Shown here piece by piece: positions 46,843-57,119 of a DNA stretch of 64,000 nt. The position numbers and the translations under genes were made by a program. The notes under the pieces are model-generated. The model ran no database searches and had not been told where the DNA came from. It worked only from the letters and a program-made list of their open reading frames with translations. The stretch comes from Cellulophaga sp. BC115SP. Lineage in GTDB: Bacteria; Bacteroidota; Bacteroidia; Cytophagales; Spirosomataceae. Position 1 is the stretch's first letter, and the number at the start of each line of letters is the position of its first letter. The DNA is taken from NCBI RefSeq assembly GCF_009905545.1, contig NZ_JAAALB010000004.1:1-64000 (forward strand), written 5' to 3'.

Positions 46843-47055
46843 AAGCCTATAATTATTTATGATGACAAATCGTACTAGTGCTGCGTTTTGAATATTTTCG
46901 AGCTAACTAGTATTTATTTTTATCAAATTTAGAAAATAAAGAATGATAGTCCAATATTTATATCTATATTAGAATATGATTCTTTTTATGTTTGTTTTTG
47001 TAGATTATTAGTGCTTTAAGGTTGATGATTTAATCTCAAAAAAGATTTTTATTCT

Positions 47056-47523
47056 ATGGCTTCGTTAGATAATACCGATTTAAGAATATTAAAATTGTTG
47101 CAAGAAGATGCTTTGATGACCAACAAGGAAATTGCAGCAAAGCTTAATTTGACAACAACGCCCGTACACGAGCGTATCAAACGCCTTGAGCAAGATGGGA
47201 TTATTGAGAAATATACAGCTATTCTCAATAAATCTAAATTGGGAAAAGGTTTGGTTGTATTGGTGGATGTGACGCTAAAAGAACATGCCGCAGAGTTTTT
47301 GGCTCAGTTTGAGCGCGATGTGTTGTTGTTGCCTGAGGTGGTTGAATGTTATTGTATTTCGGGAGGAGCAGACTTTTTGTTGAAGGTATTGGTCAAAGAT
47401 ATGGACGAGTATCGTCAGTTTATCTTACATAAATTGGCGACTTTAGCCAATATTGGAAATGCACAAAGTAGGTTTGTTGTTAACGAAATCAAAAGCCAAA
47501 CGCCCGTTCCGATACAAGTCTAA
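47056..47523 (+). CDS. Lrp/AsnC family transcriptional regulator
   Basis: A 155-residue protein with a winged HTH (LRILKLLQEDALMTNKEIAA, then KLNLTTTPVHERIKRLEQDG) and a C-terminal RAM domain (about 70-150) including SGGADFLLKVLVKDMDEYRQ. It is a paralog of the regulator at 11925-12395, with the same length and layout. The ligand is unknown. An AGAATATGATTCT palindrome lies upstream (46973-46985) and could be a binding site. Its stop is followed directly by a long inverted repeat. Confidence 0.94.
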   Translation: MASLDNTDLRILKLLQEDALMTNKEIAAKLNLTTTPVHERIKRLEQDGIIEKYTAILNKSKLGKGLVVLVDVTLKEHAAEFLAQFERDVLLLPEVVECYCISGGADFLLKVLVKDMDEYRQFILHKLATLANIGNAQSRFVVNEIKSQTPVPIQV

Positions 47524-55200: not shown

Positions 55201-55512
55201 AATGAAAGAGGAGAAAAATCTCAAAAGATAATCGATTTGCTTTTACTCCTTTATTTTTGAAATCTTAATAAAATACAATTTTTATTGAAAAAGTAAAGTT
55301 TCAAAAAAAGAATGAATTCTGAATAAGTTTGAGATAATAAAAAAGTTAAGAATCGAAAAAAAATCTTATTTTTACATAAAGAATAGTTTTTAATAATAAT
55401 CTTTTTAGAATTTTATTCTAAAAAGATAGCCAATTTGGCATGTACAATAGAATTTTATTCTTTAAAATAATTAAAAATCCAATCTTTTTTATCCTTCCTT
55501 ACAAACCAGATT
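55201..55512. other. AT-rich intergenic DNA between ABC exporter and leuA leader
   Basis: This stretch is very AT-rich. Its main structure is a perfect palindrome at 55399-55427 (ATCTTTTTAGAAT and complement with loop TTT); part of it, AGAATTTTATTCT, recurs at 55450-55462. Both may be protein-binding sites. No coding frame is convincing. Confidence 0.55.
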
Positions 55513-55543
55513 TTTGTATAGTCAATAATTTTATATAGTTTTG
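55513..55543 (+). promoter_or_regulatory. Promoter of the leuA leader transcript
   Basis: TTTG (55513-55516), a 19-base spacer, and TAGTTTTG (55536-55543) match the Bacteroidota housekeeping promoter TTTG-N19-21-TAnnTTTG. A start site about 5 bases on would put transcription at or next to the leader ATG at 55548. Confidence 0.75.
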
Positions 55544-55547
55544 AGAT

Positions 55548-55604
55548 ATGGAAAATAATAGCACAAATAAATTTTTTATCATCATTAAGCTTCTCGCTGA
55601 TTAG
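55548..55604 (+). CDS. Leu/Ile-type leader peptide for leuA attenuation
   Basis: An 18-codon frame encoding MENNSTNKFFIIIKLLAD and stopping at TAG 55602-55604. Three adjacent isoleucine codons (ATC ATC ATT) and two leucine codons (CTT CTC) are the mark of a leader peptide that senses branched-chain aminoacyl-tRNA. It sits directly after a promoter and directly before the 5' strand of the antiterminator. Ribosome stalling at the Ile or Leu codons would leave the antiterminator strand free. Finishing translation to the stop codon would cover it. No Shine-Dalgarno is seen, and the transcript may be leaderless. Confidence 0.8.
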   Translation: MENNSTNKFFIIIKLLAD

Positions 55605-55668
55605 TGAGACAAGGTTTTTTGTGCAAATCGAAGCCTTTTCTCACAACCAACTGAGGAAAGGTTTTTTT
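55604..55668 (+). promoter_or_regulatory. leuA attenuator: alternative antiterminator and terminator hairpins
   Basis: Segment 2 (55604-55617, GTGAGACAAGGTTT) pairs with segment 3 (55631-55644, AAGCCTTTTCTCAC) to form the antiterminator, 12 of 14 pairs including a G-U. Segment 3 instead pairs with segment 4 (55652-55664, TGAGGAAAGGTTT) to make a terminator followed by seven T residues (55662-55668). The two structures exclude each other. Segment 2 overlaps the last base of the leader stop codon, so a ribosome at the stop covers it. leuA starts 70 bases later. Confidence 0.82.
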
Positions 55669-55738
55669 ATACCCATTGCAACGACTATTTTGTAACCAAG
55701 AAACAACATTTAACAAATCATCAATCCCTTTAAAAGTC

Positions 55739-56878
55739 ATGAGTCAAAGAATTCAAATATTCGACACAACATTGCGTGATGGCGAGCAAGTTCCGGGCTG
55801 TCAATTGAACACTGAAGAAAAATTGCAGGTTGCTGAACAATTAGAATTACTTGGGGTAGATATTATTGAAGCTGGTTTTCCAATTTCATCTCCAGGTGAT
55901 TTCCGTTCTGTAGAAGAAATTGCTAAACTCGTGAAGAATGCCACAGTTTGTGGTTTGACTCGTGCCAAAAAAGAGGATATTGATGCAGCTGCTGCAGCTT
56001 TGAAACATGCCAAAAGACCACGTATCCACACAGGTATTGGTTCTTCGGATGTACACATTCAGCACAAATTTAATTCCACTCGTGAAAAAATTATCGAACA
56101 AGGCGTTTGGGCAGTAAAATATGCCAAAAGCTTTGTTGAAGATGTAGAGTTTTTCGCAGAAGATGCTGGTCGTGCAGACTTAGCATTTTTGGCTCAATTG
56201 ACCGAAGCTGTTATTGCCGCAGGTGCTACAGTAGTAAACTTGCCAGATACAACAGGTTATTTATTGCCAAACCAGATGCACGAGCGTATTAGCTACTTAT
56301 TCGAAAACGTTTCGAATATTCACCAGGCTACGATCTCTATGCACAACCACAATGACTTGGGCTTAGCTACAGCTAATACGATTGCAGGTATCCAAGCGGG
56401 TGCTCGTCAGGTAGAAGTTACTATCAATGGTATCGGCGAAAGAGCTGGTAACACTTCATTGGAAGAAGTTGCGATGATTTTGAACGTACACAAAGGATTA
56501 GGCTTTGAAACAGGTATTAACCCTAAATTCTTGTACCCAACTTCATTAATGGTGTCAAATTTGATGGGTATGCCAGTACAGGCAAACAAAGCGGTAGTTG
56601 GTGCTAATGCTTTTGCTCACTCGTCGGGTATTCACCAAGATGGTTTCTTGAAGCATGCGCAAAACTACGAAATCATGAATCCTGAAGATGTAGGTGTACC
56701 TTCTTCAGCAATCGTTTTGACTTCTCGTTCGGGGCGTGCTGCTTTGCGTCACCGTTTGCAATTATTAGGTTTTGCTTTCGAAAAACCAGAACTTGATAAA
56801 TTGTATACTCGTTTCTTGTTGATGGCCGATGAGCGTAAACAATTAAACGACGAAGATTTGAAAGAATTAGTAGGATAA
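55739..56878 (+). CDS. leuA: 2-isopropylmalate synthase, short form
   Basis: A 379-residue enzyme for the first step of leucine synthesis (acetyl-CoA plus 2-oxoisovalerate). It has the HMGL-like barrel: [14 protein letters not shown] (metal and substrate site, residues 7-20), [15 protein letters not shown] (metal ligands), [18 protein letters not shown], and [18 protein letters not shown] (second motif). The C-terminal LeuA allosteric domain, present in the usual 500-residue forms, is missing; the protein ends after the short linker subdomain ([14 protein letters not shown]). Homocitrate or related synthase is possible, but the leader peptide strongly supports leucine synthesis. Feedback inhibition by leucine is probably lost or reduced. 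Confidence 0.93.
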
Positions 56879-57070: not shown

Positions 57071-57119
57071 AAAAAAGGTCTTTGTGACAAACAAAATGTT
57101 TATCACAAAGACCTTTTTT
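57071..57119. terminator. Strong terminator before the PEP-synthase-like gene
   Basis: AAAAAAGGTCTTTGTGA and its perfect complement at 57103-57119 form a 17-bp stem with a 15-base loop, giving T runs on both strands. It is 190 bases after the leuA stop. Downstream, 57264-57271 reads TAAATTTG, a possible -7 element for the next gene, although no TTTG is at the correct distance. Confidence 0.85.

Follow-up and report, generated by a model that had tools for sequence, protein, structure and literature searches.

A putative leucine-responsive attenuator before leuA in Flectobacillus, with a predicted leaderless start and upstream Lrp-like palindromes

How is leuA, the gene of 2-isopropylmalate synthase, adjusted to the supply of leucine in a freshwater Bacteroidota bacterium of the genus Flectobacillus, the host of the locus studied here? 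A first-pass annotation of the 64,000-nucleotide stretch that was analysed (the window) had proposed a ribosome-mediated attenuator in front of this gene, and the leader frame, the mutually exclusive stems, their conservation and the enrichment of leucine in the leader peptides all support that reading at the level of sequence. We conclude that leuA is very probably controlled by a ribosome-mediated, leucine-responsive transcription attenuator of the trp/leu type.

Leader frame, alternative hairpins and proposed mechanism

The leuA gene (55739..56878, plus strand) encodes a protein of 379 aa that is recognised by NF002086 with 590 bits (cut-off 532), and because a terminator hairpin closes it (57075..57118, plus strand; -21.5 kcal/mol), we regard it as a single-gene unit. 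Upstream, on the same strand, the predicted 18-residue leader peptide was recovered as MENNSTNKFFIIIKLLAD (18 codons, 55548..55604, with the stop codon at 55602-55604), and the putative control codons CTT CTC (Leu15 and Leu16) occupy 55590..55595, plus strand.

The antiterminator 2:3 (55604..55644, plus strand; -16.0 kcal/mol, z -3.9) pairs 55604-55618 with 55630-55644, in detail as 55604-55609/55639-55644 and 55611-55618/55630-55637, and the intrinsic terminator 3:4 (55630..55668, plus strand; -16.7 kcal/mol, z -5.3) pairs 55630-55643 with 55652-55665 and ends in a run of seven T (55662-55668). The two share strand 3 and are therefore mutually exclusive. The first-pass annotation, which had recommended comparing these two energies, had placed both hairpins correctly to within one base, and it was right to set the 5' strand of the antiterminator at the leader stop codon (strand 2 starts at 55604, the last base of the stop) and to describe seven T residues followed by leuA. 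A protector hairpin 1:2, absent from that annotation, completes the trp-type set of stems (55561..55624, plus strand; -17.2 kcal/mol, z -2.7): its outer stem joins 55561-55567 and 55569-55575 to 55611-55624 and sequesters the antiterminator strand 2, and its pairing GCACAAA/TTTTGTGC is also found in sister species. The whole leader folds at -34.9 kcal/mol (z -4.4), and none of 200 shuffles folded equally well. Among 2000 dinucleotide shuffles, a terminator appeared in 6 and a terminator together with an antiterminator in none; on both strands of the 64-kb window, the combination of terminator, antiterminator and correctly placed ATG frame recurred at one other place (13074), where the hairpins are weaker than those before leuA.

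A ribosome on the stop codon would cover the RNA to about 55615, and one stalled at Leu15-Leu16 would cover it to near 55602-55606; the stall and stop positions relative to strand 2 therefore provide the geometry that a trp/leu attenuator needs. Transcription would begin at, or within 1-2 bases of, the leader ATG. With ample charged tRNA-Leu, the ribosome would get to the stop at 55602-55604 and cover the first bases of strand 2 (from 55604 on), strand 3 would then pair with strand 4, and RNA polymerase would halt at the T-run. If leucine were short, the ribosome would be expected to stall at Leu15-Leu16 (55590-55595), with its leading edge near 55602-55606, leaving strand 2 largely free, so that 2:3 could form, the terminator would be blocked and leuA would be transcribed. 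Untranslated RNA should terminate, because 1:2 (-17.2 kcal/mol) rivals 2:3 (-16.0 kcal/mol): strand 2 would be held by 1:2, making the terminator the default.

Promoter and start of the message

The promoter proposed upstream of the leader is present and of Bacteroidota type, TTTG-19-TAnnTTTG, with a -33 element TTTG at 55513..55516 and a -7 element TAGTTTTG (TAnnTTTG) at 55536..55543, both on the plus strand. In this AT-rich window the pattern alone is not significant (4 matches versus 2.4 expected), and the call is supported because the 19-nt spacing is conserved in relatives, namely in each of the five Flectobacillus; the G that ends TAnnTTTG likewise lies exactly 4 nt 5' of the leader ATG in five of five. 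In Flavobacterium johnsoniae, the -7 element spans -12 to -5, with a G at -5 (PMC6847099), and since this last G is here 4 nt upstream, the predicted +1 falls on the first base of the ATG, the A at 55548. The leader mRNA of Flectobacillus leuA is probably leaderless, starting at the leader ATG or within 1-2 bases of it. Where a -7 element can be recognised before the leuA leaders of other genera, it mostly lies 21-51 nt from the ATG, and the Flectobacillus ilvD and trpE leaders likewise have a gap of tens of bases.

An unlikely variant, though the strongest of the alternatives, is that the attenuator works as described on a transcript that is not leaderless and starts further upstream, e.g., from the consensus -7 element TATTTTTG at 55252. 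Most Bacteroidota mRNAs do have leaders (leaderless ones are a minority of 5.5% in F. psychrophilum, and 3.7% of 5' UTRs are shorter than 10 nt in B. thetaiotaomicron), and the -7 element at 55536 has a G at -10, which is rare and disfavoured in F. johnsoniae (PMC6847099) and counts against the promoter reading. However, the 4-nt gap to the ATG and the 19-nt spacer are kept in five of five species across a diverged region, which argues for the start at the leader ATG. No TAnnTTTG match that might mark a second promoter was found between the attenuator terminator and leuA. Right after that terminator, at 55670-55693, CCCATTGCAAC and, next to it, a TTTGT-AC block are shared by all five Flectobacillus, the most diverged included.

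Conservation of the attenuator and Lrp-like palindromes

The five available Flectobacillus genomes, assigned to the genus through the named, near-identical loci L032 and L089, all keep the promoter spacing, the frame, the Leu-Leu pair and the stems 1:2, 2:3 and 3:4 before leuA. The leader reads MENNSTNK(F/S)FIIIKLLAD in three near-identical species, and MENNRTKKKNTLSQLLQTV and MKNKYTKNTLLIIQLLALV in the two that are more distant; across the genus, the frame persists with a one-codon change in length. The Leu-Leu pair, 2-3 codons before the leader end, is retained in all five, and the Ile run becomes TLS or LII; because the former is kept and the latter is not, we read the sensed amino acid as leucine, which upholds one half of the Ile/Leu sensing suggested at first pass and discards the isoleucine half. 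The leader in the window has two Leu codons only, versus runs of 4-5 elsewhere, which counts against the attenuator reading. Across 47 distinct leuA leaders, Leu accounts for 26% of the residues versus 10% in window genes (binomial p about 2e-37, with no correction for relatedness), and 185 of the 199 leader Leu codons are CTN versus about 40% in window genes; this codon bias may be partly structural, because CTN-rich codons look like strand 3 and are able to base-pair with strand 2.

The upstream regions of about 150 leuA loci were scanned (L135 and L148 were left out, their regions being too short), with genera counted as numbered by the search tool. Siphonobacter and Emticicia are among the 16 genera of the family in which attenuators with mostly Leu-rich leaders precede leuA, and one was found in Sporocytophaga as well; the scan is incomplete, since at least one case recognised by eye (L018, leader MNCPYQSLLLSLLRMP) was missed. 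Related genomes have retained both features that the earlier annotation had suggested seeking in them, namely a short frame and alternating stems. When 34 leaders are aligned, 9 of the 13 terminator pairs show changes on both sides (32 two-sided cells versus 8.5 in shuffles), and pairing in the antiterminator amounts to 81% of cells and exceeds that of all slid controls. Covariation in the antiterminator is modest (two-sided changes in 6 of 10 pairs, a level attained by 17 of 500 shuffles), strand 3 having two partners to pair with. By the search rule, no more than about 10 nt separate the leader stop codon from the start of the antiterminator in the 47 leaders; this placement and the pairing percentages are partly a matter of construction, because locus selection required both hairpins and a nearby frame, while the leucine content of the leaders is not a product of that rule. 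A covariance model (R1) gave its best scores to leuA leaders and recovered ilvD leaders outside its training set; it was rejected as a basis for further attenuators, its weaker matches resembling generic terminators.

Two palindromes lie upstream of the promoter, an exact match TAGAATTTTATTCTA at 55406..55420, centred about -135 from the predicted +1, and TAGAATTTTATTCTT at 55448..55462, 42 bp from the first. Their common form, TAGAATTTTATTCT(A/T), is one that we take to resemble the E. coli Lrp consensus. Such palindromes are enriched upstream of leuA in Flectobacillus and its nearest relatives (about 0.2 per region would be expected from shuffles), and similar ones, spaced by roughly multiples of 10 bp, stand before leuA in Arcicella, Aquirufa, Pseudarcicella and Sandaracinomonas, suggesting that an Lrp-type regulator may act on leuA through them. 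In these four palindrome-bearing genera no attenuator was found at leuA, and its absence from Arcicella, Aquirufa and Pseudarcicella, the closest relatives outside Flectobacillus, counts against the attenuator reading. Most genera with the attenuator are without palindromes, and five of five Flectobacillus have both; at one more locus (L015/L083), two palindrome matches lie further upstream of an attenuator. In a tree of LeuA, Flectobacillus falls among the genera that have the palindromes, and those that have the attenuator branch off outside; the attenuator was therefore either lost more than once or regained.

The window also contains a gene for an Lrp/AsnC family regulator (47056-47523), with palindromes at 46939-47056, just before its start codon, that are like those of leuA, so that autoregulation and a link to leuA are possible. 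The palindromes before this gene are weak or absent in two of the five Flectobacillus species, and identity of the protein is 92% or more within the genus, 77% in Pseudarcicella and at most 54% in the other genera sampled. It might be argued that leuA is mainly controlled by such a regulator on the two palindromes and that the attenuator is a decaying remnant, as the palindromes occur in all Flectobacillus and in nearly all of the nearest relatives, which have no attenuator, and as the regulator gene with its similar palindromes lies in the same window. We consider this improbable: the hairpins, frame and spacing are intact in five of five species, one of which retains the stems despite wide divergence in sequence, and attenuation and palindrome control are compatible with each other. 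That a leuA attenuator on a leaderless mRNA is stacked downstream of an Lrp-like switch, marking a change between RNA- and protein-based leucine control within one family, is a proposition for which we see an even chance. If true, the set-point of the attenuator would depend on initiation at a 5'-terminal AUG, in a phylum without Shine-Dalgarno initiation.

Relation to known systems and to other attenuators

That the hairpins form a constitutive attenuator, or one controlled by a protein or ligand, with an incidental short frame, is highly improbable: riboswitches, too, have a terminator with which an upstream strand competes, and the window's leader holds just two Leu codons, but Leu-rich frames stand at the same place in 16 genera, the hairpin loops do not show the conservation expected of a ligand pocket, and an Rfam scan of the leader returned no family at gathering score and no plausible one up to E 10, neither Leu_leader (RF00512) nor Bacteroid-trp (RF01692) being among the matches up to that value. 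The ribosome-mediated attenuator finds its classical counterpart in that of the enterobacterial leu operon (leuL; Rfam RF00512, Leu_leader), with which it shares a Leu-codon leader peptide, competing stems 1:2, 2:3 and 3:4 and an intrinsic terminator before leuA. It differs in that the Flectobacillus leader has no Rfam match and only two Leu codons, that Bacteroidota have no Shine-Dalgarno initiation, and that leuA stands alone rather than in leuABCD.

In Corynebacterium glutamicum, leuA likewise follows a presumed leader, there with a run of four Leu codons, and the ilvBNC leader is reportedly made without a ribosome binding site (PMC4046766); these are Actinobacteria, however, and the likeness drawn is one of arrangement. 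The trpL transcript of Sinorhizobium meliloti starts with the leader-peptide ATG and is thus a leaderless attenuator (PMC7298713), although for tryptophan and in the Alphaproteobacteria, and the mycobacterial polycysteine attenuators (Canestrari 2020, as cited in PMC13236596) are described as leaderless short frames that sense an amino acid, in their case cysteine. Within the same phylum, and likewise for amino-acid biosynthesis operons, leader-peptide attenuation was inferred from transcriptome data in Flavobacterium psychrophilum (PMC9723704), in a paper whose main text names no leuA case, and the Bacteroid-trp motif is listed in Rfam (RF01692; PMC2864571), without a match to the Flectobacillus leuA leader. 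Our literature search found no published Bacteroidota leuA attenuator; a 2010 survey (Lopatovskaya et al., cited in PMC4833913) may hold related predictions.

Searches of the own genome identified an ilvD attenuator with the leader MKVSGFVNIILVLVILCCEV (L162; G000 C141, about 73263-73400, past the window end and about 17.5 kb downstream on the contig), conserved in Flectobacillus and in Pseudarcicella, and a trpE attenuator whose leader MTTNFKNTAWWWQLTKLG contains Trp-Trp-Trp (L180; G000 C126), conserved in Flectobacillus; the amino acids of both leaders fit their pathways. No convincing attenuator was seen before hisG or pheA in Flectobacillus, hisG in G004 having one hairpin and no frame. 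The rarity of such attenuators in Bacteroidota, as presumed at first pass, thus applies to experimental cases and not otherwise, given the ilvD and trpE attenuators, F. psychrophilum (PMC9723704) and Bacteroid-trp (PMC2864571). The leuA attenuator is not unusual for the phylum and seems to be a further example of a well-known type of control, its unusual trait being a message that apparently starts at the peptide start codon. Together, the ilvD, trpE and leuA attenuators support the view that Bacteroidota, for all their unusual promoters and translation initiation, use classical attenuation as an ordinary means of amino-acid control, and the leucine attenuator is family-wide in Cytophagales and missing from Rfam. 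The newer points are the predicted leaderless start and the joint occurrence of an attenuator and two Lrp-like palindromes in Flectobacillus, and they offer a comparison of leaderless and leadered versions of one attenuator, and of lineages with the attenuator only, Lrp-like sites only, or both.

Another palindrome, AGCGAAATTTCGC, is located between the promoter and the leader ATG of ilvD and leuA leaders (L162, L201, L213, L223; leuA of other genera: L020, L022, L027) and also near an apparent malate synthase / XRE regulator and other genes; it has 5 copies in the own genome versus 0 for the reversed control, is absent from the Flectobacillus leuA leader, and is possibly an operator. On a contig labelled Candidatus Roizmanbacteria (L093), a leuA 67% identical to that of Flectobacillus is preceded by a Leu-rich short frame MIKNLSLNLLLNLTNLNRWGR and a terminator and followed by an isopropylmalate dehydratase-like gene. 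In Pseudarcicella (G008, L273), an attenuator-like leader MIAIQLNIWSLLLRSKS stands before an EamA/DMT transporter-like gene, and in another family of the order (G040, L271) an attenuator with the leader MFIKRILAPFLLILLVVNW precedes a branched-chain aminotransferase-like gene, which is followed by an ilvD-like gene.
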